A stretch of 64,000 nucleotides of DNA from a virus, in the IMG/VR virus record IMGVR_UViG_3300047089_000307, positions 94,652 through 158,651 of that record; one strand, 5' to 3'. The notes under the pieces are model-generated. The model worked only from the letters and a program-made list of their open reading frames with translations. It was not told where the DNA came from and did no database searches. Below are positions 38,658 to 61,689 of the stretch, piece after piece. The stretch's first letter is position 1. Each line of letters begins with the position of its first letter. The translations under genes were made by a program, and so were the position numbers.

Positions 38658-38725
38658 CCCTGACCGGGCAAGGGAATGCCCCGTACCCGGGAAACGGGCA
38701 CGGGGCACTCGGCTAGCGGGGTCAG
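38658..38725 (-). other. Intercistronic stem-loop, class 1
   Basis: Outer CTGACC/GGTCAG, inner TGCCCCG/CGGGGCA stem with one mismatch. Starts at the stop of the gene at 38726 and ends against a promoter-like site, so at this place it can end one transcript before the next begins. Confidence 0.75.
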
Positions 38726-38827
38726 TTACCGTGCGGGCTGCCAGCCAGGGCAGCCGCAGCTGCATTCCGCGGTGCTGCTGTGCACGTGGCCGCAGGCAGC
38801 GCATGCGGGGGCGGCGGGCGGGGTCAT
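38726..38827 (-). CDS. 33-residue zinc-binding miniprotein
   Basis: ACAACGHVHSSTAECSCGC has five Cys and two His. ATGA overlap with the gene upstream; stop immediately before a class 1 stem-loop. Confidence 0.62.
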   Translation of the reverse strand: MTPPAAPACAACGHVHSSTAECSCGCPGWQPAR

Positions 38828-39060
38828 GGTGATCGCTCCTCCTCTCCTGTCTCAGTAGTGGCGGCGCCCTGGGTGAGGGCGTCCAGGACCAGGTTCCGGG
38901 CGGCTAGCCGGGGCAGCAGCGCCGACACGGTCAGGTCCGTGATCGCCTCGCCCCAGTAGTACGGGCCGAATACCCGGCCGGGCAGCCGGGAGAACTCCAG
39001 CGTGACGCGCTCCCCCCGGTAGGACCGGGCCCGGGTGACGGTGACGGTGCCCGCGATCAT
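38824..39060 (-). CDS. Unknown small protein
   Basis: 78 residues. GTVTVTRARSYRGERVTLEF, then a GPYYWGEAI turn and a helix. No family recognised. Overlaps on the downstream side. Confidence 0.65.
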   Translation of the reverse strand: MIAGTVTVTRARSYRGERVTLEFSRLPGRVFGPYYWGEAITDLTVSALLPRLAARNLVLDALTQGAATTETGEEERSP

Positions 39061-39061
39061 G

Positions 39062-39376
39062 TCAGTCAGCCTCGGGGCCGTCATCCTCGTCCTCCTCGCA
39101 TTCCGGCGGCTCCAGGTACTCCGGGTGGTCCAGCGGGGGCCTGCCCGCATCCCAGCCCAGCAGGGCCCTGGCCTCAGTCACCAGGTCGTTGTAGGTCTCC
39201 CAGGCGCGGTCGTTCTCCACCACGTAAGCCCGGCCGTCAGCCGTGGTGCCCTCGTTGTCCAGTCGCAGGGCCGCGATGCCCATGATGAACCGCAGCGCCT
39301 CCTGCGCGTCCAGGCGGGTGAAGTCCAGGGCTGAGTGCCCGTCCGCGCTGCGCAGGCGCGTGGCGTCAGTCGTCAT
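39062..39376 (-). CDS. Unknown acidic protein
   Basis: 104 residues. Helical middle (LDAQEALRFIMGIAALR), a TYNDLVTEARALLGW segment and a Glu/Asp-rich tail. The C-terminus nearly touches the next start. Confidence 0.68.
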   Translation of the reverse strand: MTTDATRLRSADGHSALDFTRLDAQEALRFIMGIAALRLDNEGTTADGRAYVVENDRAWETYNDLVTEARALLGWDAGRPPLDHPEYLEPPECEEDEDDGPEAD

Positions 39377-39821
39377 TGCCGTGCCTCCTGTCCTCGTGCG
39401 GGCACGCCCCCGCCCAGCTCCGTACCCGGGCGATGAGCAGCTCGTTCCACCGCGCGCTGCCCTTCTCCGGCATTTCCTCGCCCTCGTCCAGGTCGTAGCC
39501 ATCGATATCGGTGCCGGCGTACTGGGCGATGATGATCTCGTCCAGGCTGGCTCCCGGGTGGTCCAGCAGGTGCATGACGCTGTTGACGGCCAGGTTGAGG
39601 ATGTCGTCCTGCGCGATGGTCTCGCTGGATTCACCCTCGTGCTCCGATAGCAGGCTGGCGGCTGCGTTCAGGGCCGCGGAGACTTGCTCGCGGGTGTAGG
39701 CCAGGGTCGTTCCCTGGCTCGCCAGTGCGGCGACCCGGGCGAGCAGGCTGAGGTAATCCTCGTGCCCTGCCCGGGTCCCGCCCGGGTTATCGCGGAGCCA
39801 CTCGCCGAATGCCTTGGCCAT
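39366..39821 (-). CDS. Unknown helical protein
   Basis: 151 residues. Helices at ~5-40 and ~60-100 and an acidic loop DIDGYDLDEGEEMPEKG. Overlaps the next gene by 11 bases. Confidence 0.7.
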   Translation of the reverse strand: MAKAFGEWLRDNPGGTRAGHEDYLSLLARVAALASQGTTLAYTREQVSAALNAAASLLSEHEGESSETIAQDDILNLAVNSVMHLLDHPGASLDEIIIAQYAGTDIDGYDLDEGEEMPEKGSARWNELLIARVRSWAGACPHEDRRHGNDD

Positions 39822-40198
39822 CAGGCTTCTCCTTCCCTGCGCTCCGGCCGCGGTGCGCCGCAGTTACCGCAGGTGCCGTCTTCCACGGGGCTGCGGTAGC
39901 CGCACGCGTGGCCTTCCTCCAGGCGGTTGCGGCATTGCCAGGCGAACCTGGCCTTGTCGAGGAGCTGGTCCAGGGTGTCTGACTCGTAGTCGTCTGCGAC
40001 GTTCCGCAGCCGGCCCAGGATGCCGCCCGGCTCCCATGGCCCAGGCCCTGCTGAGGCCACGGCCACGTCCGTCCATTCGGAGGTGTCGTGGTTCCCGTAG
40101 TTGGCGGCGTCATCAAGCGCGAATTCGACGGCGCTGAGGATTCCTGCCTCATCGGTTCCGTCCGGGGCCTCGACTGTGACCAGGATTGCCTTCTTCAT
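39821..40198 (-). CDS. Unknown protein with C-terminal zinc ribbon
   Basis: 125 residues from the ATG at 40198, eight bases after GGGAGG; an in-frame GTG at 40207 overlaps that site. N-terminal strand-helix (KAILVTVEAPDGTDEAGILSA) and a C-terminal CGYRS...CGNCG. Confidence 0.7.
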   Translation of the reverse strand: MKKAILVTVEAPDGTDEAGILSAVEFALDDAANYGNHDTSEWTDVAVASAGPGPWEPGGILGRLRNVADDYESDTLDQLLDKARFAWQCRNRLEEGHACGYRSPVEDGTCGNCGAPRPERREGEA

Positions 40199-40199
40199 C

Positions 40200-40403
40200 T
40201 CACTCACCTCCCGTCAGCGTGACGCAGCCGGCGCTGTTCCCGTTGGCGTCCAGGATGAGGGCGCGGAAATCAGGGATGACTGCCCAGGATTCCATGTCGT
40301 CCTCCATGCGCTCCACGACCCGGGTGACGGTGCGGTACACGTCGTCTTTCGTGATCATGGCGTCATCGCCGAGCGTGATGCTGATCTCAAGTTTCCGTGG
40401 CAT
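40200..40403 (-). CDS. Unknown small protein
   Basis: 67 residues. LEISITLGDDAMITKDDVYRTVTRVVERM looks like a strand followed by a long helix. Own ribosome site (AAAGGAAAA). Confidence 0.65.
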   Translation of the reverse strand: MPRKLEISITLGDDAMITKDDVYRTVTRVVERMEDDMESWAVIPDFRALILDANGNSAGCVTLTGGE

Positions 40404-40416
40404 TTTTCCTTTCCTT

Positions 40417-40623
40417 TCAGGTAGCGACGTCCAGGGTTACGAGGACTATGTCGTACGAGCAGCCGTCAGGTGCCTCCGCTGACGTGTCCTTCCACGTCAG
40501 CGGGTTTACTCCGTTTTCGTGCTCCTGGCAGGCGGTGCGTGCCTTCTCTTCGTCAGAGAAGCCGCCTATTACGCCGGATTTATGCCCGTCCGGGTAATCG
40601 TGCAGTGCAATGTAGATATCCAT
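40417..40623 (-). CDS. Unknown small protein
   Basis: 68 residues. IYIALHDYPDGHKSGVIGGF then EEKARTACQEHENG, an arrangement of strands and a helix resembling small phage 'DUF' proteins. GAAGAGAAAGAGAAGAG leader. Confidence 0.65.
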   Translation of the reverse strand: MDIYIALHDYPDGHKSGVIGGFSDEEKARTACQEHENGVNPLTWKDTSAEAPDGCSYDIVLVTLDVAT

Positions 40624-40642
40624 CTCTTCTCTTTCTCTTCTT

Positions 40643-40701
40643 CAGGCTGAGTGCCTGCGACCGCGCACGGGAAATTCCCGCCCGCGATCGCCAGTGCTCA
40701 G
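40643..40701 (-). other. Intercistronic stem-loop, class 2
   Basis: Outer CTGAG/CTCAG, then a CACTGGCGATCGC part facing GCGGTCGCAGGC. Relative to other class 2 copies the outermost pairs are compensated (GAG/CTC instead of GACC/GGTC). Confidence 0.65.
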
Positions 40702-40983
40702 TTACTTTTTCCTGGCCTCGTCCGCCTCGCGGGCCAGGGCCGTGTCCTCGGGGCCGTCCGGGTCGTACCCCCCGGCGGTGAGCCACGCGAGGGCGCGCTC
40801 CCGGTTCGCGCCGCGGTCCTTGAGCATCCGGAACGCCTCGCGTACCGGCGTGGAGTACCCGCCCTGGATCATGACGGCGTGCATGGCCGCCTTCTCCGGA
40901 TCGTGGAATCCCAGCTCGTCGGCGAAGAAGCCGCCAAGCTCGTCAGCGAAATAGCCCATTCCCATTCCCATTCCCATTCCCAT
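40702..40983 (-). CDS. Protein with (Met-Gly)n N-terminus
   Basis: 93 residues by the first ATG. The first ten are five Met-Gly pairs encoded by perfect GGAATG hexamers, so the real start can be any of five ATGs and copy number may vary between isolates. Two similar FADELG segments follow (residues 12-27), then an EF-like acidic helix region. No family recognised. Confidence 0.68.
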   Translation of the reverse strand: MGMGMGMGMGYFADELGGFFADELGFHDPEKAAMHAVMIQGGYSTPVREAFRMLKDRGANRERALAWLTAGGYDPDGPEDTALAREADEARKK

Positions 40984-40986
40984 TCC
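40957..40986 (-). repeat. GGAATG hexamer repeat
   Basis: Five perfect tandem hexamers across the start of the gene at 40702; each contains both an ATG and part of a ribosome site (GGGAATGGG). Confidence 0.85.
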
Positions 40987-40999
40987 CTTGTCCCCTTTC

Positions 41000-41281
41000 T
41001 CAGTCTCCGTGCGGGTGGACCAGGATGGCGACGATGGCCAGGGCCTGCCAGTGGTCCAGGCCGGTGATCACCGGGATCAGGCCCCGGTCACAGGTCAGCT
41101 CGCTGACGGCGTAGCCGCGATCTCCGGTCAGGGCAGCGATCAGCGCATTCCCGTGCACGCGCCATTCCCTTTCATGCGGGTGACCCGGGCAGTGGGCGGC
41201 CCCGCATTCGCAGGGGACTGCGGGGTTATCGCAGTCGTCTACCTCGCAGGGAGCCGGGCCTGGGCGGTGCAGGGTGCTCAT
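41000..41281 (-). CDS. Cys/His-rich small protein
   Basis: 93 residues. CEVDDCDNPAVPCECGAAHCPGHPHE (residues ~12-38) has six Cys and several His; the rest is a helix with ALIAALTGD and a hydrophobic end. Confidence 0.7.
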   Translation of the reverse strand: MSTLHRPGPAPCEVDDCDNPAVPCECGAAHCPGHPHEREWRVHGNALIAALTGDRGYAVSELTCDRGLIPVITGLDHWQALAIVAILVHPHGD

Positions 41282-41676
41282 CGTCCCTCCTCCTCCTCCT
41301 GCGCCTCGATGGCGTCGGCCAGGGCCGTGAGCACGGGCAGCGGGTCCCGGTCGGTGAGCGCCAGCAGGGCCGCGGTCATCACGTCCGGGCTGGCGCCGCT
41401 CAGCAGGAGCAGCGCCTTGGCCCGGGGGTGGCGCAGCGGGCTGCCCGCTACCGGGTCCTTGTCGCCCTTGCGCCAGACCGGGAGTACCAGCGCGGTGCGT
41501 TGCTCGTGCGGGTGCCGTAGCCGCCGCCGGATGAAGAACGTTCCCGGCAGCAGCACGACGCGGTGGCATCGCTTGCCGGCCGGCGCGTGGCACAGCGGGC
41601 AGGCGTGCCGCAGCGACTTAACTTCACGCAGGTAGCCTGCCAGGTCGCTGTTCAGCTCCAGTGACATCTCGTTCAT
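41278..41676 (-). CDS. Phage zinc-finger protein, long form
   Basis: 132 residues. CPLCHAPAGKRCHRV followed by RRRLRHPHEQR repeats the module of the 63-residue protein at 4991, here embedded in a longer helical protein with a Glu-rich end. Confidence 0.75.
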   Translation of the reverse strand: MNEMSLELNSDLAGYLREVKSLRHACPLCHAPAGKRCHRVVLLPGTFFIRRRLRHPHEQRTALVLPVWRKGDKDPVAGSPLRHPRAKALLLLSGASPDVMTAALLALTDRDPLPVLTALADAIEAQEEEEGR

Positions 41677-41849: not shown

Positions 41850-41878
41850 GGTTCTCTTCCTTTCAGTAGCGGCGGAGC

Positions 41879-42085: not shown

Positions 42086-42246
42086 GGGACGGCCTGCCCG
42101 CGGGCGCTCTCCGGACCGGCAGTCCAGCTGGCCTCCTCGCCGCTGAAGTCCTGCTCGGTCCAGGTCGTCCGGCACAGCAGGAGGCTGACGGGGCAGTCCG
42201 GTGCGCCGTCGCAGCACCACCAGGGCACGAATGATGCCCTGCTCAT
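42082..42246 (-). CDS. Small Cys-containing protein
   Basis: 54 residues: WWCCDGAPDCPVSLLLC near the start. ATG overlaps the Ku stop, and its own stop overlaps the next GTG, so it is part of the Ku transcript. Confidence 0.6.
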   Translation of the reverse strand: MSRASFVPWWCCDGAPDCPVSLLLCRTTWTEQDFSGEEASWTAGPESARGQAVP

Positions 42247-43046
42247 GCGGCCTTCGCCGCCTTCGCGGCCTTGGCCGCCGCCACGCTGGCCTTCAGGATG
42301 TCGCCCAGGTCAGCGGGCGCCCCGGTGCCCGGCTCGGCAGCGGAGGTCCCGGGCGGCAGTACCACGTCACCGCCGGCGATCTTCGCCTCGATGACCTGCT
42401 CCAGTGCCTCCCGGTAGCCGTCGTGGTAGGCGTCCGGGCTGAAGTCTTCGGTCAGGGTGTCGATCAGCATGGCCGCCGACGCCAGCTCCTGGCTGCGCAC
42501 CTGCGTGTCCTCGTCCAGGAACGCGAAGTCCGGCGAGCGCACCTCATCCGGCCACAGCAGCGTCTCCAGCACCAGCATGTCGCCGAGGACGCGGATGACC
42601 GCCAGGGACTCCCGCAGCCGCAGGGCCACCTTGGCGACGGCCACCCGCCCGGAGCTGCGCAGTGCCTCGCGGAACAGCACGTACGCCCGCGTCCCGCCCC
42701 GGCCCGGCTCCAGGTAGTAGCTCTTGCCGGACAGCAGCGGGCTGACCTGCCCCGCGGCGGTGAAGCTCAGCACCTCGACCTGCTTGCGGGTCGGCAGCGG
42801 CAGGCGTGCCAGGTCGGCGTCCGTCAGCACGGCCACCGTCCCGTCCGGCAGCTCATAGCCCTTGGCCAGGTCGGAGTACGGGACCTCCGCGCCGTCAGCC
42901 GAGCAGATGCGGCGCAGGTGGATGCGCGCCCCGTCCGCCTGGTGCACCTGGTGGAAGGCGACGTCCCGCTCTCCGGTGGCGGCGTACAGCTTCACCGGGA
43001 TGACGACCATGCCGAACGAAACTGTGCCTGACCATATGCTTCTCAT
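42243..43046 (-). CDS. ku: Ku DNA end-binding protein
   Basis: 267 residues, full length for bacterial Ku. SIWSGTVSFGMVVIPVKLY at the N-terminus, the GYEL...TDADL segment, the KSYYLEPG strand, the YVLFREAL helix and the LETLLWPDEVR region are all in place; the end is the usual Lys/Ala tail. A Ku homodimer rings DNA ends for non-homologous end joining. No LigD is present here, so it would work with host LigD, perhaps to close phage DNA ends or protect them from nucleases. Confidence 0.95.
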   Translation of the reverse strand: MRSIWSGTVSFGMVVIPVKLYAATGERDVAFHQVHQADGARIHLRRICSADGAEVPYSDLAKGYELPDGTVAVLTDADLARLPLPTRKQVEVLSFTAAGQVSPLLSGKSYYLEPGRGGTRAYVLFREALRSSGRVAVAKVALRLRESLAVIRVLGDMLVLETLLWPDEVRSPDFAFLDEDTQVRSQELASAAMLIDTLTEDFSPDAYHDGYREALEQVIEAKIAGGDVVLPPGTSAAEPGTGAPADLGDILKASVAAAKAAKAAKAA

Positions 43047-43061
43047 GGTTTCCTCTTTCTT

Positions 43062-43080: not shown

Positions 43081-43081
43081 C

Positions 43082-43924: not shown

Positions 43925-43985
43925 CAGGCTGGTCGCCTGCGGACGCGGACGGGGGAAGATCCCGCCCGCGACCGCCAGCGGTCAG
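43925..43985 (-). other. Intercistronic stem-loop, class 2
   Basis: GCTGG/CCAGC with CGG bulged, TCGCGGGCGGGAT paired imperfectly with the TCCCCCGTCCGCG side, capped by a short loop. Lies between the stop of the gene at 43982 and a promoter-like site. Confidence 0.65.
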
Positions 43986-44374
43986 AGCTGGCTGTTGATC
44001 AGCTGCCAGATTTCCGGGAACGTGGTTCCGGTGTCGTTGAGGCTGGCCAGCGAGTCCTGGTTCCGGCCTTCCGGCCGGCCGGCCATGGTCACCACCGGGC
44101 TAGCCAGGGTCAGCCCGGCCCAGCTGGTGACAGCCGAGGGGAGCAGCGCGTATGCCCAGTCCGTTCCGTCCGGGGTGGCGTAGCGGTACCTCCCGTTCTC
44201 CGGGTTGAGGGTGCGCACGACGATTCCGGCTTCCACGGCCAGGTCGCACAGGCCGCCGAGGCAGCAGAACTCCTCCTTCCCGCTCTCGGTAACCTGGCGC
44301 AGCGCGCCCCTGCCCTGCTCGTCCGCGTGCGCCAGCAGCCATTCGCCCCACCGGGCTTTGATCTCGGGGTTCAT
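43982..44374 (-). CDS. CCLG-type phage protein, copy A
   Basis: 130 residues. EFCCLGGLCDLAVEAGI, then WAYALLPSAVTSWAGL, SLASLNDTG and IWQLI at the end match a well-spread phage family (CCLG-x-L-C near the N-terminus, 'lND.G..F..IA.lI' near the C-terminus). A close paralogue is the next gene upstream. Function unknown; often in early regions. Confidence 0.75.
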   Translation of the reverse strand: MNPEIKARWGEWLLAHADEQGRGALRQVTESGKEEFCCLGGLCDLAVEAGIVVRTLNPENGRYRYATPDGTDWAYALLPSAVTSWAGLTLASPVVTMAGRPEGRNQDSLASLNDTGTTFPEIWQLINSQL

Positions 44375-44409: not shown

Positions 44410-44793
44410 TCACAGTTGCTCGCTGATGAGCCGCCAGATACTCGGGAAGCGGTAGCCTTGGTCGTTCAGCTCGGCCAGCGACGCGCGATGGCTGTCCGCG
44501 AGGGAGACCACCGGGTTGCTGTCCGGCAGGCCGGCCCACTGGTACACGGCCCGGGGCAGCGTCCCGGTCTCCGGTTCCGGGTGCAGCTCTCCTTCCACGT
44601 AGTAGCCGTACTTGCGCGTGGCCTCATTGAAGGTGCGCACGACGATTCCGGCGGCCACGGCCAGGTCGCACAGGCCGCCGAGGCAGCAGAACTTGCCTCC
44701 AGCGTCAGTCTCCTGGCGTAGCGCGCCCGTGCCCTGCTCGTCCGCGTGCTCCAGCAGCCACGCGCCCCACTGGTCCTTGATCTCGGCGTTCAT
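44410..44793 (-). CDS. CCLG-type phage protein, copy B
   Basis: 127 residues from the second ATG, which aligns with copy A; the first ATG (44799) would add two residues. Same landmarks: KFCCLGGLCDLAVAAGIVVR, AVYQWAGL, SLAELNDQG and IWRLISEQL. Tandem duplication with copy A. Confidence 0.75.
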   Translation of the reverse strand: MNAEIKDQWGAWLLEHADEQGTGALRQETDAGGKFCCLGGLCDLAVAAGIVVRTFNEATRKYGYYVEGELHPEPETGTLPRAVYQWAGLPDSNPVVSLADSHRASLAELNDQGYRFPSIWRLISEQL

Positions 44794-44835
44794 TGGCATT
44801 TCGGTGCCGTTTCCTTTCTTGTTTTCTCCTGTTTG

Positions 44836-44902
44836 CCCTGACCGGGCAAGGAAGCGCCCGTGCCCTGTTCCCAGGGCACGGGCGCTTGGCTAACCGGGTC
44901 AG
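44836..44902 (-). other. Intercistronic stem-loop, class 1
   Basis: Outer CTGACC/GGTCAG; the internal loop GGTTAGCCAAG faces CTTCCTTGCCCGG; inner GCGCCCGTGCCCTG stem perfectly paired. Confidence 0.75.
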
Positions 44903-45395: not shown

Positions 45396-45967
45396 GAATG
45401 ACTCCATCTCTTCCTGTTCACGATCATGGAAATAGTCGCCTTACTCACGCAGAATTCGTCAGCTAGCATCCTTTGCTTTTCTCCAGCCGCGTGTCTTTGC
45501 CGGATTTGCGATACGTCTTTCTCGGTTAGCTTTGCCATCGGGTTCTGGCTGCCTGCGTTCGCAGTGCCGTCACGTACCCGGTCCCCCTGGTTCTCCGCTG
45601 GCGTTCCGTAGCGCAAGTTGGCTACGCAGTTCACCAGGTTTCCCTCAGGGCCATGGCAGCACTGCATGCCCGCAGGGCGCTCGCCAAGGTGAGCGCGAGC
45701 GACCAGCGTGTGCACCATGTGGTGGTGGATGATGCCGTCCGCGTCGGTGAGGGTCACCTGCCAGTAATTCCTGTGCCAGCTCACCGGACTGGATGAGGCG
45801 CGGTACTGCCTGATGATCCCGCCGGGGCGCGTCCACGGATACGTTTTCCCTTTCCGTGACCTGCGCCAGATGATGCGATCAAGGGACCGTACGGTCCCTT
45901 GATCGCTCACCTCGTACAGTCCCTCGTACCCGACTACCGGGAGCCACTCACTGGTCTTTGTGTTCAC
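45392..45967 (-). CDS. NUMOD4/HNH homing endonuclease
   Basis: 191 residues; the GTG start lies inside the end of the gene at 45948. Residues ~5-22 are a NUMOD4 module (SEWLPVVGYEGLYEVSDQG), residues ~60-135 the HNH core (HRNYWQVTL, MVHTLVARAHLG, CHGPEGNLVNCVANLRYGT, ENQGDR) and residues ~145-190 a helix-turn-helix (LTEKDVSQIRQRHAAGE...SKATISMIVNRKRW). Lower G+C than the neighbours. A selfish element that replaced the last codons of its host gene. Confidence 0.88.
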   Translation of the reverse strand: MNTKTSEWLPVVGYEGLYEVSDQGTVRSLDRIIWRRSRKGKTYPWTRPGGIIRQYRASSSPVSWHRNYWQVTLTDADGIIHHHMVHTLVARAHLGERPAGMQCCHGPEGNLVNCVANLRYGTPAENQGDRVRDGTANAGSQNPMAKLTEKDVSQIRQRHAAGEKQRMLADEFCVSKATISMIVNRKRWSHS

Positions 45968-48535: not shown

Positions 48536-48603
48536 CCCTGACCGGGCGGCAAAGCGCCCCGTGCCTGGTAACCAGGCACGGGGCGCTCGGGCTGGGCGGT
48601 CAG
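48536..48603 (-). other. Intercistronic stem-loop, class 1
   Basis: Outer CTGACC/GGTCAG, internal GCCCAGCCCGAG opposite CTTTGCCGCCC, inner GCGCCCCGTGCCTGG stem perfect with a TAAC loop. Begins inside the stop of the gene at 48600. Confidence 0.8.
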
Positions 48604-49636: not shown

Positions 49637-49703
49637 TTGACCGGACAAGGAAGCGGCACCGGCTCGCTTGCGCGAGGCGGTGCCGCTCGGCTAACCAGGT
49701 CAG
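49637..49703 (-). other. Intercistronic stem-loop, class 1
   Basis: Outer CTGACC/GGTCAA-type, internal GGTTAGCCGA opposite TTCCTTGTCCGG, inner GCGGCACCGCCTCG stem, nearly identical to the element at 56861 although the flanking genes differ. Confidence 0.8.
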
Positions 49704-49711: not shown

Positions 49712-49900
49712 TTACGGGTAGTGGTAGGACGTAATGGTCTTCAGGCCCATGGATTCAGCGACCTCCTCCAGGGCGGCGGCGTAGCCGTCCCGGTAAGCCG
49801 GGTTTCGCCATTCGGCGCTCTTCTCGGCCTCTCGCAGGGCGGTCGTCATCGCCTCCGCCAGGCTGGATAGCTGGTACTCGGCTGTGTCGGCCATGCTCAT
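49712..49900 (-). CDS. Unknown small helical protein
   Basis: 62 residues; ATGA overlap with the gene upstream. Helical throughout (AEYQLSSLAEAMTTALREAE...RDGYAAALEEVAE); resembles early phage small proteins. Confidence 0.68.
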   Translation of the reverse strand: MSMADTAEYQLSSLAEAMTTALREAEKSAEWRNPAYRDGYAAALEEVAESMGLKTITSYHYP

Positions 49901-50229
49901 GTCGTTTCCCCCTCTTCGATAGCCGGCACCGGAAGCGGCTCGCCCCGGTACGTCCCGATGAGCGAGTACCGCCAGTTGATGTGCTGCGCTGTGTCCGGTA
50001 GCCTCACGGGCGGCCCGTCCGTCCCGAAGTAGGCGGCCGGGCTGCCGTAGCTGGCGATCCGGATGTCGCCGGCGTCCCGGTGAGACAAGTCGTGGTTCTG
50101 GAAAACGGCCACGCCGTCTCCGCGGGCCAGCCACTGGTTGACCTTCCCGGTGATCTCCCCGGTTCCCTCCGGCCCGTATTCCTCGAAGAGGCAGGCAGCC
50201 AGTTCTCCGGCGGTGAATTCCGTTGCCAT
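49897..50229 (-). CDS. Conserved actinophage protein
   Basis: 110 residues. GVAVFQNHDLSHRDAGDIRI, SYGSPAA and INWRYSLIGTYRG are the landmarks of a protein family I recall as common in Streptomyces phages. Function unknown. First gene of its transcript, after a promoter-like site. Confidence 0.78.
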   Translation of the reverse strand: MATEFTAGELAACLFEEYGPEGTGEITGKVNQWLARGDGVAVFQNHDLSHRDAGDIRIASYGSPAAYFGTDGPPVRLPDTAQHINWRYSLIGTYRGEPLPVPAIEEGETT

Positions 50230-50239
50230 GGGTTTTTCC

Positions 50240-50266
50240 TTTCTCAGTATCTTGCGGTAGTATGGA
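50240..50266 (-). promoter_or_regulatory. Promoter-like site, double
   Basis: Read leftward: CATACTACCGCAAGATACTGAGAAAGG; both CATACT (50259-50264) and GATACT (50246-50251) occur 13 bases apart before the leader of the gene at 50229. Confidence 0.5.
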
Positions 50267-50372
50267 GGGAGTATGCGGTATGGTTTGGCCAGGCAAGGTC
50301 AGGTGAGCCCTGGCGGGGCCAGGCAGGCGTGGGACTCCACCTGGTCACAGCACGTCTGTGGCCAGGTGGTGG
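50266..50372 (+). other. Possible short plus-strand RNA with GGCAN repeats and hairpin
   Basis: After AGTATGCGG (50269-50277) comes G-rich pentamer-like sequence and then a hairpin (CCACCTGG/CCAGGTGG, 50336-50368) that spans the stop of the minus-strand GMC oxidoreductase gene. Same layout as 46486-46605. Confidence 0.35.
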
Positions 50373-51820
50373 CCTAGCCTGAGTGCGTTGGCCATGACGG
50401 TCAGCGCAGGATTCGTTGCTCCTACGGACGGCATGAACGAGCTGTCCGTGACGTACAGGTTGCGCACGTCCCAGGTCTGGCAGAACGGGTCCAGAACGGA
50501 TGTTGCCGGGTCGGTGCCGAATCGCAGGGTCCCCGCCTGGTGGGCCACGGCCGTCAGCGGCATCATCTTGCGCAGGAACAGCGCGTCCACGCCGGAAGCC
50601 CAGAGCATCTTCTTGGTGGCCGCGTACAGCTGGTGCGCCGCGCGCTGGCTCGTCTGCGTGACCGACAGCCGGATGGTGCCGTCAGCGTCCAGCGTGACCC
50701 GGTTCTCCGGCCGGGGCAGGTCCTCGGTGGACAGCCAGAAGTCCAGCGCGTGCGCGGCGACCTTCTCCAGTGACCAGCCCGGGGCCAGCGCGGCCAGCCG
50801 GGACTCGCCCCTCATGGCTTCTGCTGAGCTTTTTCCCAGCATCTGGATGCAGCCCAACCCCTCGTTGTAGAAATCGTTGATGCATAGCGTCTTCTGGAAG
50901 ACGGTCGGGTTCGGTTCTGGAGTAATGGCCATGACCGCTTGCGACAGGTGGGACATGTAGTTGCGTCCTACCTGTCCAGAGCTGTTGGCCAGTCCTGACC
51001 GCAGTAGGATCGCGGCGCTGTTGACCGCGCCGGCCGCCAGCACGATGATGTTCGCGCTGTGCAGCTCGCGGTATTTCTCGCCGTCCTCGTCCGTGCGCAC
51101 TACGTCCACCCAGCGTGCCTGGCCTCCGGGGGCTATGATGCGCCTGACTCTCGTATTCGTCATCAGCGTGACGTTGTCCATCCCCAGCAGCGGGCGTACC
51201 GCGACCGTCTCCGCGTCGCTTTTGGCTCCCAGCTGGCAGGCGAACCCGTCGCAGGTCCCGCACAGGATGCAGCCCTTAGCCGTCAGCACGCCGGCCGGCG
51301 CGTGGAACGGGTGGTAGCCCGCCCGGGTCAGGTCATCGGACAGCTGCTGGATGCGCGGCTCGTGCGGGACGGCCGGCAGCGGGTACTGCCTGCTCCAGCT
51401 TCCCTCCGTGGGGTCCTCACCGTGGTGCCCGCGGACGGAGTACATCTGCTCGGCCTCGTCGTACCATGGCCCCATGTCGGTGTAGCCCAGCGGCCACGCA
51501 GGGGAGATCCCGTCTGTCTCCTGGCGGGCCTCGAAGTCACGCGGGCGCAGCCGGAACAAGGCTGCGCCGAACAACTTGGTGGCTCCGCCTACGTAGTAGT
51601 GCGCCTGCGGCTGGAATGGCTTCCCGTGCTTATCGCGCCAGGTGTCCTTGCTGACGTACCGGCCGTTGCCGAACACTTCCTTTGCGTCCCAGTTCTCCGG
51701 TTCGCGGGGCAGGAATCCTCCGCGCTCGATGATGGCGATCCGCTTGCCCGTCTTTGCTAGCACGCTGGCCAGCGTTCCGCCGCCGGCCCCTGAGCCGACG
51801 ATGATGACGTCGTAGTGCAT
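50345..51820 (-). CDS. GMC-family FAD oxidoreductase
   Basis: 491 residues, full length. Dinucleotide fold IIVGSGAGGGTLAS (residues 6-19), GMC-type YYVGGATKLFGAALF, a CILCGTCDGFACQLGAKS segment (~187-204) with three Cys, AAGAVNSAAILL, and the C-terminal YVTDSSFMPSVGATNPALTVMANALRLG, which holds the conserved Asn/His active-site side. Oxidises an alcohol or sugar-like substrate; a partner cytochrome or Cys-cluster protein is not seen. A metabolic enzyme of this size is unusual among the small phage genes here, but its base use matches them and it is flanked by standard leaders and stem-loops. Confidence 0.9.
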   Translation of the reverse strand: MHYDVIIVGSGAGGGTLASVLAKTGKRIAIIERGGFLPREPENWDAKEVFGNGRYVSKDTWRDKHGKPFQPQAHYYVGGATKLFGAALFRLRPRDFEARQETDGISPAWPLGYTDMGPWYDEAEQMYSVRGHHGEDPTEGSWSRQYPLPAVPHEPRIQQLSDDLTRAGYHPFHAPAGVLTAKGCILCGTCDGFACQLGAKSDAETVAVRPLLGMDNVTLMTNTRVRRIIAPGGQARWVDVVRTDEDGEKYRELHSANIIVLAAGAVNSAAILLRSGLANSSGQVGRNYMSHLSQAVMAITPEPNPTVFQKTLCINDFYNEGLGCIQMLGKSSAEAMRGESRLAALAPGWSLEKVAAHALDFWLSTEDLPRPENRVTLDADGTIRLSVTQTSQRAAHQLYAATKKMLWASGVDALFLRKMMPLTAVAHQAGTLRFGTDPATSVLDPFCQTWDVRNLYVTDSSFMPSVGATNPALTVMANALRLGHHLATDVL

Positions 51821-51849: not shown

Positions 51850-51918
51850 CCCTGACCGGGCAAGGGAGCGCCCCGTGCCTGAGTGACCAGGCACGGGGCG
51901 CTCGGCTAACCAGGTCAG
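51850..51918 (-). other. Intercistronic stem-loop, class 1
   Basis: Outer CTGACC/GGTCAG, internal TGGTTAGCCGAG opposite CTCCCTTGCCC, inner GCGCCCCGTGCCTG perfect. Between the stop at 51919 and the leader of the GMC oxidoreductase. Confidence 0.8.
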
Positions 51919-52194
51919 TTACCCGGACAGGTGCTCGTCCCCGGTGAGGGGCTTGCCCGCCAGTGCGTCCTTGATCTCTCCGAAGGCAGCACGCCGCTGC
52001 CGGGTGATGTCGTCCAGCTCGCTCTCCCGGCTGTCGATGTCATAGATCAGCCGGTCCAGCCGGCCCCACAGGCCACCGGGGCCGGCGTTGACGTACTGGG
52101 CGGTCAGCTCCCGCATGGCGGTGGCGTGCTCGCGCATCTCGCGCAGGGCCTCGCGCGGGAAGCGGCTTAGCTCATCGGTGCTCAGGATGGTCAT
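51919..52194 (-). CDS. Unknown helical protein
   Basis: 91 residues. Charged, mostly helical (FPREALREMREHATAMRELT; SRESELDDITRQRRAAFGEI), perhaps coiled coil. No family recognised. Confidence 0.7.
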   Translation of the reverse strand: MTILSTDELSRFPREALREMREHATAMRELTAQYVNAGPGGLWGRLDRLIYDIDSRESELDDITRQRRAAFGEIKDALAGKPLTGDEHLSG

Positions 52195-52195
52195 C

Positions 52196-52339
52196 TCAGG
52201 TCACCTGCCCGAGTGCGAAGGCGAGACCCCCGAGGACGGGACTGGCGAAGAGCGCGACGACTAGCCCGTTCAGGAGCCAGGACACGATTGCGACGACGGG
52301 CCTTGCAGGCAGGCCGTTGGCTGCCTTCCACGTGGTCAT
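52196..52339 (-). CDS. Small membrane protein
   Basis: 47 residues with one long hydrophobic stretch (residues 15-44). ATG in a short leader after the gene at 52341. Confidence 0.55.
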   Translation of the reverse strand: MTTWKAANGLPARPVVAIVSWLLNGLVVALFASPVLGGLAFALGQVT

Positions 52340-52340
52340 C

Positions 52341-52760
52341 TCAGATCACCGGTCGCTGCGCCAGTGCGGCCTCCAGCGCGGCCATGACCAGCAGCGGGTT
52401 GTCGCCGTAGCGCCAGCACAGCGCCCGGTCGTCCACGAACAGCCGGGTGCCGTCCAGCTTGCGATGGGTAACCAGGACGGTGCGCCCGTCCCTGCCGCCG
52501 TCCCAGCTCCTGCGGCGCATGAGCGGGTCGGTCCTGGTCCGCACGTTCTGCGCGTGCAGTGCGCGGGCGACCTTGCCGGGCTTGTTGCCGGTGACGATGG
52601 CGACGACGTGCCCGCTGGCGTGCGCCATGTGGATGAGCGTGGCGTCCACCCGGCCGAAGTGCGGCTCCCAGTGGTCGTGCTCGTGCACGACGCCGTCGAA
52701 GTCCAGGACCAGGAGCTGGGCTACCTTCTCCTCCGGGTCTGCCTTTCCTGCCAGTGTCAT
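52341..52760 (-). CDS. HAD-like phosphatase
   Basis: 139 residues. VLDFDGVVHEH (motif I, residues 18-28), VTGNKPGK (motif II region, ~57) and LFVDDRALCW (~108). The LVTHRKLDGTRLFVDDRA segment is close to the plus-strand HAD protein at 3947. No cap. Own ribosome site GAAAGGAAAAAG. Confidence 0.78.
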   Translation of the reverse strand: MTLAGKADPEEKVAQLLVLDFDGVVHEHDHWEPHFGRVDATLIHMAHASGHVVAIVTGNKPGKVARALHAQNVRTRTDPLMRRRSWDGGRDGRTVLVTHRKLDGTRLFVDDRALCWRYGDNPLLVMAALEAALAQRPVI

Positions 52761-52794: not shown

Positions 52795-52858
52795 CTAGCC
52801 GGACAGCAAGGCGCTCCGCATTCACCGTTGAATGCGGAGCGCCATGCTCACGGGCTAG
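52795..52858 (-). other. Intercistronic stem-loop, class 1 variant
   Basis: The outer pairs are CTAGCC/GGCTAG instead of CTGACC/GGTCAG, a compensated change, and the inner GGCGCTCCGCATTCA stem is perfect. The CTAG holds the TAG stop of the gene at 52855. Confidence 0.8.
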
Positions 52859-53962: not shown

Positions 53963-54030
53963 CCCTGACCGGGCAGCAAAGCGCCCCGTGCCTGGTTATC
54001 AGGCACGGGGCGCTCGGGCTGGGCGGTCAG
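53963..54030 (-). other. Intercistronic stem-loop, class 1
   Basis: Almost the same as the element at 48536 (outer CTGACC/GGTCAG, GCCCAGCCCGA internal part, GCGCCCCGTGCCTG inner stem). Overlaps the stop of the gene at 54027. Confidence 0.8.
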
Positions 54031-54632
54031 TCGTCCTCGGCGTCCTCGTCGTCCTCGTCGTCCTCGTCGTCCTCCTCGTCGTCCTCGGCGTCCTCGTCGT
54101 CCTCCTCGTCCTCGTCCGCGCCCGCGCAGCCAGCGCAGTCACACGACTCGTCGTCTTCGTCGTCTTCGTCGTCCTCGTCGTCCTCGCACTCGGGGATCTC
54201 GAACGTGCCCGTCTCCGCGATGGCGTCCAGGGCGGCCAGCACCTCGCTTTCCGTGCGCCCGGCATGGAACAGCCAGTCCGACAGGTCCTGATCCAGCGTT
54301 AGCCCCAGCGCCCGCGCGCCCAGGTAGTCTGCGGAGCCGATCTGCTCGCCGTCTGCGGTCTCGACGTTCGAGCCGTCATCGATGAGCGCTCCCGGCGGGG
54401 CGGTGAGGATCGCGGCCCATCCGGCGACGCAGCCGGTCGTCCCGCAGGAGTGGCTGCCGTGCCGGAGCGCGTCCAGGATCTTGCTGATCGCCATCTCGGT
54501 GGACTTGCCGAACCATGTGCGCTGGTACCACCACCGGGAATCGGTGCGGATCAGGTCCGCGATGAACCTCGCCAGCGTCCGCGGGGTGAAGCTCTCCGGG
54601 ATCTCGCGGACAGTCTCTTCGTGCTCGTGCAT
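54027..54632 (-). CDS. Conserved phage protein with acidic repeat tail
   Basis: 201 residues. Residues ~30-140 match a common phage family (SCGTTGCVAGWAAIL then SADYLGARALGLT, DWLFHAG). The last 50 residues are almost only Asp/Glu, encoded by GAC/GAG/GAA repeats and interrupted by CDCAGCAG. The tail might mimic DNA or bind metal; its length may vary by slippage. Confidence 0.75.
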   Translation of the reverse strand: MHEHEETVREIPESFTPRTLARFIADLIRTDSRWWYQRTWFGKSTEMAISKILDALRHGSHSCGTTGCVAGWAAILTAPPGALIDDGSNVETADGEQIGSADYLGARALGLTLDQDLSDWLFHAGRTESEVLAALDAIAETGTFEIPECEDDEDDEDDEDDESCDCAGCAGADEDEEDDEDAEDDEEDDEDDEDDEDAEDD

Positions 54633-54658: not shown

Positions 54659-54715
54659 AGGCTGGGTGCCTGCGACCGTGCGCAGGAGATCCTGCGCACG
54701 GCCGCCAGTACCCGG
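54659..54715 (-). other. Intercistronic stem-loop, class 2
   Basis: ACTGGCGGCCGTGCGCAGG paired with CCTGCGCACGGTCGCAGG, then the conserved CACCCAGCCTGAA. Long perfect inner stem (CCGTGCGCAGG/CCTGCGCACGG). Confidence 0.7.
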
Positions 54716-56009: not shown

Positions 56010-56072
56010 CAGGCTGGTCGCCTGCGGCCGTGGACAGGGCGGATGGCCCTGCCCGCGACCGTCAGCGGTCAG
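56010..56072 (-). other. Intercistronic stem-loop, class 2
   Basis: CTGACCGCTGACGGTCGCGGGCAGGG against CCCTGTCC...CGCAGGCGACCAGCC; the GGGCAGGG/CCCTGTCC core is the strongest stem. Overlaps the stop region of the gene at 56069. Confidence 0.65.
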
Positions 56073-56860: not shown

Positions 56861-56928
56861 CCTGACCGGACAAGGAAGCGGCACCGGCTCGCTTGCGCGA
56901 GGCGGTGCCGCTCGGCTAACCGGGTCAG
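56861..56928 (-). other. Intercistronic stem-loop, class 1
   Basis: Outer CTGACC/GGTCAG with an inner GCGGCACCGCCTCG stem almost identical to that at 49637; the loop is GCAA-like. Starts within the stop of the gene at 56925. Confidence 0.8.
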
Positions 56929-57852: not shown

Positions 57853-57891
57853 GCTCCTCCCGCCTCCTTTCCCTTCTCGTTTTCCTGGTTG

Positions 57892-57960
57892 CCCTGACCG
57901 GACAGCAAAGCGCCCCGTGCCCGGGTGAGCGGGCGCGGGGCGCTAGGGCTGAGGAGTCAG
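57892..57960 (-). other. Intercistronic stem-loop, class 1
   Basis: CTGACT with an inner GCGCCCCGCGCCCG stem carrying one G-T type change, and a GTCCGGTCAG end; the outer pair is CTGACt/gGTCAG. Confidence 0.7.
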
Positions 57961-57966
57961 GAGCTG

Positions 57967-58335: not shown

Positions 58336-58367
58336 TTCCTGTGCTGCCTTTCTCCTGCTCTCCCCGG

Positions 58368-58437
58368 GCTGGCCGGGCTGCGATGCGCTCCCGCGCCTGT
58401 CATTCCAGGCGCGGGAGCGCACGGGCGGCCGTGCCAG
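58368..58437 (-). other. Intercistronic stem-loop, class 1 variant
   Basis: Outer GCTGGC/GCCAGC, inner GCGCTCCCGCGCCTG perfect over 14 bp. Sits just after the stop of the gene at 58439. Confidence 0.7.
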
Positions 58438-58438
58438 C

Positions 58439-58845: not shown

Positions 58846-58876
58846 GGTGTTGCCCTTTCCGGTAGTTTCCTGGTTG

Positions 58877-58947
58877 CCCTGACCGGGCAGCAAAGCGACC
58901 GCGCCCCCGTGGTTGCGGGGGCGCGGTCGCTAGGGCTGGCTGGTCAG
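58877..58947 (-). other. Intercistronic stem-loop, class 1
   Basis: Outer CTGACC/GGTCAG; the inner stem is different in sequence (GCGACCGCGCCCCCG against its complement), which keeps pairing while changing most bases. Confidence 0.8.
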
Positions 58948-59282
58948 TGCTGCTTCGTGCTGGCGTACGTGGTGCCGGGCTCGTGAAGCTCGGCGTCCTT
59001 GCCCTCGAAGTACCGGGCTAGCCGGCCGTACTGGCGCATGGTGCCGGACATGGTGTCGGAGCCGCCGCGCGTGGTGTTGTGCCAGGTCTGGGTCTCGCCG
59101 GAGTCCGCGTACCCGTTGGACCAGGCGGCGACCCGGGTCACCTGCACGACGGTCAGGTTGTTGTCCCAGAATTTCGCGCCCACGGTGACCGGGAAGCCGT
59201 CTGCGGACAGGTGCGCGACCTGGACTGCGGGGTGCTTCGGGCAGGAGCCGTCGTTGGCTCCGGTGCAGGCGGGACCGGTCAC
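58944..59282 (-). CDS. Unknown protein
   Basis: 112 residues from the GTG overlapping the previous stop. CTGANDGSC near the start; beta-rich VTVGAKFWDNNLTVVQVT. No signal seen, but the pairing with the exported protein upstream suggests a related job. Confidence 0.66.
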   Translation of the reverse strand: MTGPACTGANDGSCPKHPAVQVAHLSADGFPVTVGAKFWDNNLTVVQVTRVAAWSNGYADSGETQTWHNTTRGGSDTMSGTMRQYGRLARYFEGKDAELHEPGTTYASTKQH

Positions 59283-59566
59283 GGCTGCTCGACGTCCAGC
59301 GTTCCGTCCCGGAGGCAGGTGGCCACGTCGCTGTCCGGCAGGAAGACCTCCTGGCCGGGCTTGAGCGTGACTACCCAGGTGCCTACCAGCTGGTCGGTGT
59401 TGTCGGTGTAGACCGGCTGGGTCGCGCGGCACGTGCCGGCCGGCAGGTGAATCGCTGTCCCCCTGGACTGCGCGACCGCGTAGGTGGTGCCGGCGGTAGC
59501 GCCGCTGAGCAGGACGAGCGATCCCGTGAGCAGTAGCGCGCGGCGTCGGGTGATCCGGAGCTTCAT
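59279..59566 (-). CDS. Exported or membrane-anchored protein
   Basis: 95 residues. RITRRRALLLTGSLVLLSGATAG is a basic-hydrophobic leader (signal peptide or anchor), followed by a beta-rich domain with two Cys. Confidence 0.68.
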   Translation of the reverse strand: MKLRITRRRALLLTGSLVLLSGATAGTTYAVAQSRGTAIHLPAGTCRATQPVYTDNTDQLVGTWVVTLKPGQEVFLPDSDVATCLRDGTLDVEQP

Positions 59567-59588
59567 GGTGGTTTCCCTTTCTCGGTTG

Positions 59589-59656
59589 CCCTGACTGGAC
59601 AAGGAAGCGCTCCGCACCGTGCGTTACGGTGCGGAGCGCTCAGCCAATCGAGTCAG
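59589..59656 (-). other. Intercistronic stem-loop, class 1
   Basis: Outer CTGACT/AGTCAG: the last base pair changes from C-G to T-A with both sides adjusted. Inner GCGCTCCGCACCGT perfect. Confidence 0.8.
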
Positions 59657-59660
59657 TGCC

Positions 59661-59855
59661 TTACGGGCAGGTCAGCCCGTCATCGCCGTACTGCCGTGCC
59701 AGGTCCTGGCACGCGGGCGCGGTACTCGTGCCCGTGGTCTGGTAGATGACCTGCCCTTGCGGGGCGGGCATGCTCTGCACGGCCAGCGTGGCGGCTACTC
59801 CGAAGAGGCAGGCTGTTACAGCCAGGGCCGCTATCCATGCTCTGGGGTGCTTCAC
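59661..59855 (-). CDS. Exported or membrane-anchored small protein
   Basis: 64 residues from the GTG overlapping the previous stop. PRAWIAALAVTACLFGVAATL is a signal or anchor; a Cys pair near the C-terminus. Confidence 0.64.
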   Translation of the reverse strand: MKHPRAWIAALAVTACLFGVAATLAVQSMPAPQGQVIYQTTGTSTAPACQDLARQYGDDGLTCP

Positions 59856-60085
59856 GATGACGTGTCCTTCCTCGTGATGAGGATCGTGGGCCATTCCAGG
59901 TACCGGGCCGCCATGACCTGCGCGTCCGCGTGGGCCCAGCTGTCCGGGTCCGGCGTGCCGTCCGCGCGCAGCAGGACGGGCTCGATCTGCCCCTCCTGCT
60001 CCAGGCGCTCAGCCTGCGCGTAGACGTCCCGCCAGTGCGGCTCGCTGCTGACGGGGACGTCGTGCGGGCTGACCAGCTCGGTCAC
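59852..60085 (-). CDS. Unknown small protein
   Basis: 77 residues from GTG. Helical (DVYAQAERLEQEG), ending TILITRKDTSS. No family recognised. Confidence 0.62.
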   Translation of the reverse strand: MTELVSPHDVPVSSEPHWRDVYAQAERLEQEGQIEPVLLRADGTPDPDSWAHADAQVMAARYLEWPTILITRKDTSS

Positions 60086-60087
60086 GG

Positions 60088-60570
60088 CTACGCCCTGGCC
60101 TCGGTCACGATGGCCCGGTTGATCCACGGCACGCCATGGCCGGCCGTGTCGACGTGCAGCGTGTCGGCAGCGCCGTAGCGGGCCTGGGCCGGCGCGCTGC
60201 GGGCGACGTTCAGCGCGTCCTCGCTGCTGGGCGCGCTGGTGATCAGCGTGATCAGGTCATCCCCGGTCATGGCCTCGTGCACGGTGACCCGGGACTCAGC
60301 CGTCAGGATCGCGGTTGCGTAGCTGGCCCAGACTTCGCTGTCCTTGCTGATGGTGATGGCCTGCCCGTGCTGGGACTGGTATGCGGCGTTGCCGGCGGCC
60401 AGCTCCTCCTGCGCGCTGCGTGCCTCGGCGTACGCATCCGGGTGCCGCAGCGCGATGAAGTTCAGCAGGAAGTGCAGGTCCAGCATGCTTAGCTGCGCTA
60501 TCTCCTCTAGCGGTCCGGCCGGCTGCTGCCTGCCTTCCGTCTCCGGGATGTCCCGGGAGTGCTTTCCCAT
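60088..60570 (-). CDS. Unknown protein
   Basis: 160 residues. Helices at ~20-45 (LSMLDLHFLLNFIALRH) and ~45-70, then a beta segment. No family recognised. AGGAAGGGAAATC leader. Confidence 0.68.
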   Translation of the reverse strand: MGKHSRDIPETEGRQQPAGPLEEIAQLSMLDLHFLLNFIALRHPDAYAEARSAQEELAAGNAAYQSQHGQAITISKDSEVWASYATAILTAESRVTVHEAMTGDDLITLITSAPSSEDALNVARSAPAQARYGAADTLHVDTAGHGVPWINRAIVTEARA

Positions 60571-60596
60571 GGTCGATTTCCCTTCCTGTCGGTTCC

Positions 60597-60666
60597 TGAT
60601 GGCCACGTAAGGCCATGGCCCCGGATTTCCCTGTCACGGGAAATCCGGGGCCACGATCCGGCGTCA
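60597..60666 (-). other. Intercistronic stem-loop, other type
   Basis: Inner stem GGCCCCGGATTTCCC perfect (60617-60652); the outer part CTGACG...CATCAGG is less regular than in class 1. Confidence 0.65.
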
Positions 60667-60900
60667 GTTCAGGATCAGCCGTCCCATGGCTTCCCAGCCG
60701 CCGAGCATTTCAGCGACTACCTTCTGGGAAAGCACGGCAGCGGCCAGCGGGCTTGCCCCGGATTTGCGGGCTGCCCGGTAAGCGGCGTTCTGCGCTAGTG
60801 CCTCTGCTTCTTCCCGGTTGCCGTGCGGGAGGGACAGCGCGTCAGCGGCGGCATCGCTGGCCGCCATTTCGATGTCGGTCATGTCCGGGAGAGCGGTCAT
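60664..60900 (-). CDS. Unknown helical protein
   Basis: 78 residues. Ala-rich helices (ASDAAADALSLPHGNREEAEA; ASPLAAAVLSQKVVAEML). No family recognised. Confidence 0.65.
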   Translation of the reverse strand: MTALPDMTDIEMAASDAAADALSLPHGNREEAEALAQNAAYRAARKSGASPLAAAVLSQKVVAEMLGGWEAMGRLILN

Positions 60901-60916
60901 TTCCGGGTTTTCCTCT

Positions 60917-61051
60917 CTAGACACGGTCAAGTGCGGGATCGTAGTGCGTGGCTCTCCGCGCGCCGGCCAGGTAGGCCATGCGCAGGAAGGAGTAGCTGAG
61001 CATGGAGTCATCAGGCAGGGAGTCCCACCAGGATTCGAAGTCCTCGTCCAT
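60917..61051 (-). CDS. 44-residue acidic protein
   Basis: ATG after GAAAGGAATCC; DEDFESWWDSLPDDSML then a helix. Resembles tiny early phage proteins. Confidence 0.58.
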   Translation of the reverse strand: MDEDFESWWDSLPDDSMLSYSFLRMAYLAGARRATHYDPALDRV

Positions 61052-61067
61052 TTCCTGGATTCCTTTC

Positions 61068-61598
61068 TCAGTAGTTCCTGGTCCACGTGAACAGGAACCG
61101 CGTGTCGTAGTGGCTGCTGCACCGGTTGCAGCTGATCTGCTTAGTCGGCCGGCGTTCCCGTCCGGTTTCGTGGCCGGCCGGGCACGTCCCCGCCCACCGG
61201 GGCTCCAGCTCTGCCTCGCCGTCGTGTCCCCAGGTCCTGTCCGGCTCCACTCCGATCCGGATGCACTCCAGCTGCCACGCGGCATCGTGGTAGTGGCCGG
61301 GCGTCCGCGCGTGCGCGATCTCGTGCAGCACGGTCTTGCGCTGGTGCTCCGGAATCCACAGGGACATGAGCAGCGCGGAGAAGCTCAGCGTTCCCGCGCT
61401 GCCGTTCCTGCCGTACCGGCACTGGCCGGCCCGGCGCTTGGCCTGGTCAAACTGGAATCCCCATGCGGACAGGTCATGGGCAGCCATCTCGGCGAGCGCC
61501 ATCTCCCGGAATTCCGCTAGCTTCCCGGGCTCGGCGACGTGGTTACCGTTGTCAACTAGCGTGACCGCCCCGAACTGTGAGAGCAGTGATCCTGCCAT
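61068..61598 (-). CDS. SprT-like zinc metalloprotease
   Basis: 176 residues. HEIAHARTPGHYHDAAW (residues 92-108) is the HExxH motif with a third His nearby, as in SprT/Spartan-type peptidases; the end has CPAGHETG and ISCNRC-SSHYD, a zinc ribbon. LSFSALLMSLWI and VLHE fit the strand before the active helix. Spartan-like proteases remove proteins crosslinked to DNA; a phage copy could clear replication blocks. Starts FGAVTLV (residues 9-15), also seen in the protein at 62438. Confidence 0.85.
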   Translation of the reverse strand: MAGSLLSQFGAVTLVDNGNHVAEPGKLAEFREMALAEMAAHDLSAWGFQFDQAKRRAGQCRYGRNGSAGTLSFSALLMSLWIPEHQRKTVLHEIAHARTPGHYHDAAWQLECIRIGVEPDRTWGHDGEAELEPRWAGTCPAGHETGRERRPTKQISCNRCSSHYDTRFLFTWTRNY

Positions 61599-61630
61599 GC
61601 GTCCTGGATTCCTCCTTTCCTGCTCAGTAC

Positions 61631-61689
61631 CGGGCTGAATGCCCGTGAGCGCACGCGGGGGATTCCCGCGTGCGCTCATGGGGAGTCAG
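61631..61689 (-). other. Intercistronic stem-loop, other type
   Basis: Inner GAGCGC-ACGCGGG/CCCGCGTGCGCTC, outer CTGACT...TTCAG; similar placement to class 1, different internal loops. Confidence 0.6.

Follow-up and report, generated by a model that had tools for sequence, protein, structure and literature searches.

Hairpins between cistrons are already known from phages. The ribonuclease III (RNase III) sites of T7, T3 and lambda transcripts are made of two stems split by an irregular internal loop. For the early region of phiC31, Ingham, Hunter and Smith are said to have described, in 1995, rho-independent terminators that have no poly-U. RNase III cuts the T7, T3 and lambda transcripts, and the cut ends can leave stabilising hairpins (PMC5371410). 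Structured, U-poor transcript ends are common in Streptomyces (PMC8269248, PMC12207403), and the T4 stem-loop modules called PeSLs are thought to spread and be exchanged as cassette borders (Arbiol 2010 and Comeau 2014, as cited in PMC4503421). Here we describe a family of intercistronic stem-loop elements in a stretch of viral DNA of 64,000 nucleotides (the window), bases 94,652-158,651 of the 158,651-base virus record IMGVR_UViG_3300047089_000307. What is new is a family in several classes, a fixed geometry of stop codon, element and next start codon, and a probable alternative hairpin overlapping the main fold.

The leftward genes span about 63 kb down to 34 kb of the window, most of them with 4-base overlaps. 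Between 38.6 and 61.9 kb, this string is interrupted by 22 gaps of at least 75 nt, and 19 of them contain one hairpin element each. All 19 are on the minus strand: 13 of class 1, five of class 2 and one of class 3. Genes at 34-37 kb and 39-42 kb, which are conserved and syntenic, overlap and carry no element, and a search of the other 94.6 kb of the record found no copy. Elements are absent from the gaps 45757-45948, 50229-50345 and 52194-52341, the first of which is the 5′ end of an HNH gene and probably an artefact of the start-codon call. A hairpin at 45875-45906 was rejected as a family member, being located within a NUMOD4/HNH gene. A reading of the DNA made from the letters alone (the sequence-only reading) had announced about twenty copies between genes in two forms; every copy that it named is present on the minus strand, and the count holds at 19, in three classes instead of two. 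Of the class 2 copies, the four already pointed out were located, and a class 2 model (R2) added a fifth. The elements are listed below, with one ordinary terminator for contrast; some lines refer to a second phage, described further on.

38660-38725, minus strand: class 1, followed by TATACTG
40643-40698, minus strand: class 2
43926-43982, minus strand: class 2, followed by TATACTG
44838-44902, minus strand: class 1, alternative hairpin TTGCCC-GGTCA-GGGCAA
46420-46482, minus strand: class 1, unusual in lying 126 nt past the stop codon; middle helix CAGT/ACTG
48538-48603, minus strand: class 1, 5′ arm contains the stop TGA
49637-49703, minus strand: class 1, core copy of 56862-56928, alternative hairpin lost
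51852-51918, minus strand: class 1, top score (88.5 bits)
52795-52858, minus strand: class 1, outer arms CTAGCC/GGCTAG, the TAG being the stop codon
53965-54030, minus strand: class 1, 5′ arm contains the stop TGA
54660-54714, minus strand: class 2
56012-56071, minus strand: class 2
56862-56928, minus strand: class 1, alternative hairpin TGTCC-GGTCA-GGACA
57894-57960, minus strand: class 1
58369-58437, minus strand: class 1, outer arms CTGGC/GCCAG
58879-58947, minus strand: class 1, 5′ arm contains the stop TGA
59591-59656, minus strand: class 1, outer arms CTGACT/AGTCAG
60605-60664, minus strand: class 3, ACGCCGG..CCTTACGT form, with three relatives recognised by eye in the second phage
61634-61689, minus strand: class 2 variant, held-out R2 match; by position, its counterpart in the second phage is at 121.77 kb
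34177-34211, minus strand: ordinary T-run terminator hairpin at the end of the leftward string, at its junction with the rightward genes; not a family member

Class 1 elements share a nested fold. Going inwards from an outer helix of 6 pairs (CTGACC/GGTCAG and variants), one meets a mismatch zone, then a middle helix of 4-5 pairs and a small asymmetric junction, and finally a GC-rich inner stem of 12-16 pairs closed by a loop of 3-6 bases. In the alignment of the 13 window copies (alignment A1), 91.2% of 363 cells are paired, against 74.2% (standard deviation 1.4) after shuffling. Double changes occur in 18 of the 28 pairs, and the covariation score is 0.516 compared with 0.188; none of 500 shuffles was as good on any measure. 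When the 3′ partners were slid by 1-3 columns, pairing fell to 33-47%. An alignment of 18 rows from both phages gave the same picture (91.9% of cells paired, double changes in 15 of 22 pairs, 0/500 shuffles).

The region between outer and inner stems had been described as an asymmetric internal loop. It is in fact the short middle helix with a mismatch zone on each side; this helix covaries too and takes the forms CAGC/GCTG, CAGT/ACTG, CAAT/ATTG or GGT.AG/CU.GUCC. Its pair X7-Y2 is CG in nine copies, GC in seven and TA in five, and the next pair is GC, AT or GT. In the 21 class 1 copies of the two phages, own middle arms scored 72 against 55.9 for permuted arms (0/20,000, P below 5e-5). Own outer arms scored 114 against 107.7 (0/20,000), and the 13 distinct outer pairs alone gave P = 2e-4. 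The compensated outer stems CTAGCC/GGCTAG at 52795-52858 and CTGACT/AGTCAG at 59591-59656 are exactly as first noticed. Selection on RNA structure, proposed from the window, is thus strongly supported and now extends to two phages, with covariation above shuffle controls.

The class 2 model was trained on 12 copies from the two phages. These fold in a near-continuous register of 24 pairs, 88.9% paired, with a covariation score of 0.223 against 0.129 (0/500 shuffles). Two further measures did not exceed shuffles, because 11 of the pairs never vary. Not a single U occurs within 10 nt past the stem. The copy at 61634-61689 is outside the training set and was matched at 41.2 bits (E 7e-7, match span 61628-61690). 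Class 3 has one window copy, at 60605-60664, and three look-alikes seen by eye in the second phage.

We then considered how the elements are placed relative to genes, counting 35 copies from the two phages. In 32 of 35, the upstream gene has its stop codon between -4 and +15 nt relative to the 5′ arm, and in 11 copies this codon lies exactly within the arm, as C-TGA-CC or C-TAG-CC. In the 52795 copy the arm has changed to CTAGCC, with pairing kept and a stop still supplied. From the 3′ arm to the next start there are 19-53 nt in 34 of 35 copies (median 33), and this spacer is purine-rich. Every copy is in transcript sense and none is antisense. Restriction to one gene string, fixed start spacing and the alternative 3′ hairpin go beyond what the sequence-only reading had described. 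The copies at 49637 and 56862 differ by one base from arm to arm and are unrelated outside (35-38% identity over 40 nt). Since near-identity is confined to the element, copying or conversion acts on the element as a unit.

The second phage, a distant relative, is the contig IMGVR_UViG_3300050821_010409 (122,432 bases), which came up with two matches to a gapped pattern built on the class 1 skeleton. There the class 1 model (R1) found about nine copies at 31.6-74.4 bits, eight of them at 42 bits or more, all on the minus strand at 105.1-119.3 kb, in the equivalent leftward region. Model R2 found 12 class 2 copies, four of them outside its training set (5704, 19324 and 19735 in piece L208; 12864 in piece L207). 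Three class 3 copies, recognised by eye, are also present. L211, which has one class 2 motif match, was rejected as a further carrier as no element was found in it. Synteny between the two phages is partial, and their matched genes encode proteins that are about 29-74% identical. Both keep the conserved genes of the leftward arm in overlapping runs free of elements, while elements separate small genes that are mostly unshared. The junction at 49712 of the window is orthologous to that at 106833 of the second phage, and one of them carries class 1, the other class 2. The classes therefore seem functionally equivalent and appear to serve the same job.

How is such a string transcribed? No sigma-70-like promoter was found on the minus strand at 36-64 kb, in a scan that covered this promoter type, and spacers of 19-53 nt leave little room for one. 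The lack of T runs noted by the sequence-only reading was borne out: no copy is followed by five or more T in eight bases, and a classical intrinsic-terminator scan lists none of them. Ordinary T-run terminators are found at the string ends of both phages and elsewhere (in the second phage, for example, at 3749-3784 of piece L207). A string acting as a single unit without sigma-70-like promoters needs read-through. Since no such promoter lies between the elements and U-tailed terminators end both strings, some 19 elements in succession are unlikely to be efficient terminators. By calculation, 50% termination at each of 19 serial elements would leave about 2 in a million transcripts, and efficient termination at each element is compatible with transcription from the right end only given antitermination. 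Among the roles suggested earlier (special terminators, processing sites or stability elements), the anatomy thus argues against efficient terminators and leaves all three as candidates.

From the sequence evidence we lean, with somewhat less than even confidence, to read-through joints that act in mRNA processing, in 3′-end protection, or in both. The elements would be cis-acting RNA joints in one leftward early-type mRNA of about 24 kb, setting off cassettes of 1-4 genes and letting transcription pass through. A host double-stranded-RNA-specific ribonuclease of RNase III type may then cut at or close to the internal-loop region; the hairpin may, in addition or instead, block 3′ exonucleases. 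Each cassette would gain its own protected 3′ end, and the next one a uniform leader, about 33 nt long and carrying its ribosome-binding site. Outer (5-6 pairs), middle (4-5) and inner (12-16) helices form a nested, interrupted helix of about 25-30 bp, which is in the length range of RNase III substrates; at least about 20 bp of double-stranded RNA with an internal loop, as expected of such a site, are thus present. With a ribosome terminating at the stop codon, the 5′ arm would be covered and the 3′ arm left available for another pairing, so that the joint may sense upstream translation.

Such a pairing can be drawn in most copies, where the outer 3′ arm doubles as the 5-nt loop of a possible small hairpin. 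It takes the forms TTGCCC-GGTCA-GGGCAA in class 1, CAGGC-NNNCA-GCCTG in class 2 and CGGGC-ATTCA-GCCCG at 61634, and in the second phage GCCTGC-CGTCA-GCAGGC and GTCCC-GGTCA-GGGAC. It and the middle helix are mutually exclusive. At least four pairs close the 5-nt loop in 15 of the 21 class 1 copies and in all class 2 copies inspected, against a base rate of 2% in the string, and permutation gives P of about 0.003 for the 21 class 1 copies, evidence that is weakened by the paralogy of the copies. On this moderate support the hairpin is likely, and it may mark a switch or a pseudoknot. Carried to its full extent, the idea becomes a serial translation-sensing RNA switch, in which the stop-bearing 5′ arm and the alternative or pseudoknotted hairpin would compete for the 3′ arm. 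The terminating ribosome would then pick the fold at each of about 20 joints, and so processing, read-through or re-initiation of the next cassette. We consider this version rather unlikely.

Several observations weigh against the joint and its alternative hairpin. TATACTG follows two elements and GATACT one; phage-specific promoters are conceivable, and a few internal promoters after elements are possible. Class 1 copies have up to 4 U in the 10 nt past the last GC pair, like experimentally found Streptomyces terminators (PMC12207403). No RNase III gene was found in either phage, and its presence in the host is an assumption. Finally, the alternative hairpin is not above column shuffles on alignment A4 (58/500, cells paired), and in five of the 21 class 1 copies only 0-2 pairs close it.

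The serious rival, which we hold possible although we favour processing or protection joints, is that the elements are intrinsic terminators or attenuators of the U-less, actinobacterial type, each reducing entry into the next cassette, with antitermination or upstream translation perhaps overcoming them. Strong GC hairpins right after stop codons are compatible with it as far as sequence goes, structured ends without a U-tract are a recognised Streptomyces class (PMC8269248, PMC12207403), and the phiC31 gap 24305-24387 folds with an outer stem, GCTGAAC/GTTCAGC, that includes the stop codon. Against it stand the series of about 19 without sigma-70-like promoters and the ordinary T-run terminators that close both strings; moreover, the conserved outer and middle helices would be superfluous for intrinsic termination, and class 2 has no U past its stem. 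The RNA role might instead be secondary to the spreading and exchange of cassette borders by recombination between copies at the DNA level. This would suit the location of the elements among small genes of poor conservation, the conserved syntenic genes overlapping without them, as well as the junction 49712/106833 at which the class differs between phages, and the pair 49637/56862, identical bar one base and unrelated outside. It leaves the compensatory changes and the fixed distance to the next start unexplained, and no Y1 transposase or tyrosine integrase was found in either phage; we regard it as improbable. An integron attC array was rejected on the absence of PF00589 (tyrosine integrase) from both records, which are possibly incomplete, and a REP/RAYT or IS200-type mobile hairpin on that of PF01797 (Y1 transposase), action of a host enzyme in trans being conceivable.

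The remaining two explanations call on a protein ligand. If the elements were bound by an RNA-binding or antitermination protein of the phage, one that travels with or acts on the leftward transcript, this would account for the conserved interruptions between helices, the conserved flank GGGCAAC and the transcript sense of every copy. No RNA-binding family was recognised among the 50 string proteins, however, and two sequence-unrelated classes at equivalent positions fit one specific protein poorly, so that the prospect is slim. A DNA operator for a repressor, like the palindromes of phiC31 or Cluster O, is most improbable. The 3′ part TTGCCC-GGTCA-GGGCAA is palindromic in some copies, but the arms vary with compensation, whereas the operator-like repeats of Cluster O have invariant arms and a third of them lie within genes (PMC4351075). 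All copies are intergenic, in a single orientation, and the sense score is far above the antisense score; the operator reading was rejected on these grounds.

Searches for relatives elsewhere gave none. Rfam 15 contains no matching family at the gathering score or at E up to 1, and neither megablast nor short-sequence blastn found a relative among 50,697 phage records. Exact 3′ patterns run over IMG/VR and genome contigs, with hairpins checked, returned chance or conserved coding matches only. Model R1 found nothing convincing in Actinoplanes phiAsp2, Gordonia OneUp, Microbacterium RubyRalph or phiC31 (best in phiC31, 14.1 bits, E 0.69). It had no match at 1e-6 in 297 genomes from the phylum to which a Nocardia genome belongs, a weak negative as stricter filters were used. 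A Nocardia match of 31.9 bits was rejected as an ordinary gene-end hairpin and marks the noise ceiling.

Other features of the two records are reported for themselves. Directly downstream of the class 1 element 51852-51918, a GMC-family oxidoreductase is encoded at 50345-51820, minus strand (GMC_oxred_N, E 3e-17; GMC_oxred_C, E 5e-19), an unusual metabolic gene in a phage. Tandem paralogous genes at 43982-44374 and 44410-44799 have three tandem copies in the second phage (113341-114595), and are followed by a class 2 element in the window and a class 1 element in the second phage. The 201-aa protein of 54027-54632 ends in an Asp/Glu-rich low-complexity tail (54027-54200, minus strand, GAC/GAG repeats). 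At 62003-62075, a gap without called genes holds a perfect 18-nt inverted repeat, ATTCCCCGTGTTCCTGGT, with a 37-nt spacer and no Rfam match. The rightward genes of the window include a 1,562-aa DNA polymerase (27186-31874). A class II aminoacyl-tRNA synthetase-like protein (tRNA-synt_2b and HGTP_anticodon) is encoded at 25331-26911, minus strand, and 33 predicted tRNA genes covering most amino acids lie outside the window at record bases 3648-7985 (L005), which suggests a heavy investment in translation. In the second phage, the gap at record bases 119945-120213 contains pieces resembling parts of tRNAs (GGTTCGACTCC.. and GGTTCAATCCCC..), in which ARAGORN calls no tRNA. A Ku-like DNA-end-binding protein (42243-43046, minus strand) reaches 49% identity with phage Ku proteins; with Ku of mycobacteriophages such as Courthouse and MiaZeal the figure is 45%.

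It is poorly understood how large phages express strings of 20-30 kb that lack internal promoters and yet keep or vary the amounts of dozens of small proteins. Here a compact RNA family that Rfam does not contain recurs in two phages of otherwise different gene content. Its elements offer a system for separating termination, processing and protection, and could be used as a marker of gene cassettes in dark phage genomes and possibly as insulator parts for high-GC bacteria.

Compared with known systems, the elements resemble the U-less terminators of phiC31 in being found in an actinophage, early and intercistronic, right after stops and without a T run; in the phiC31 gap 24305-24387 the outer stem likewise embeds a stop codon. 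Unlike here, the phiC31 terminators form no sequence family, and phiC31 junctions bear promoter and operator repeats, which those described here mostly do not. The Cluster K start-associated repeats (SAS and ESAS) are also present in actinophages as many intergenic copies upstream of genes, ESAS with imperfect inverted repeats (PMC3203893). The sequence-only reading had offered them as a loose precedent, which did not survive: the 13-bp SAS motif GGGATAGGAGCCC has two matches in the window at two mismatches, the chance level, and none in the string, and our elements covary and are tied to stops at least as tightly as to starts. The 17-bp palindromes of Cluster O, too, are numerous and belong to the leftward right arm of an actinophage that encodes Ku, and differ by their invariant arms, the lack of a meaningful orientation and a location within genes for about one third (PMC4351075). 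The T4-type promoter-early stem-loops (PeSLs) are, like our elements, modules set between small early genes where gene content turns over, but a PeSL is a terminator plus an early promoter (PMC4503421), whereas most junctions here have no sigma-70-like promoter. The RNase III sites of T7, T3 and lambda share the intercistronic position in the early region, two stems parted by an irregular internal loop, the long double-stranded RNA and, as proposed here, read-through, cleavage of our elements being a prediction. Without any claim of sequence relation, what sets our elements apart from these sites is that they form a multi-copy paralogous family fixed to stop codons.

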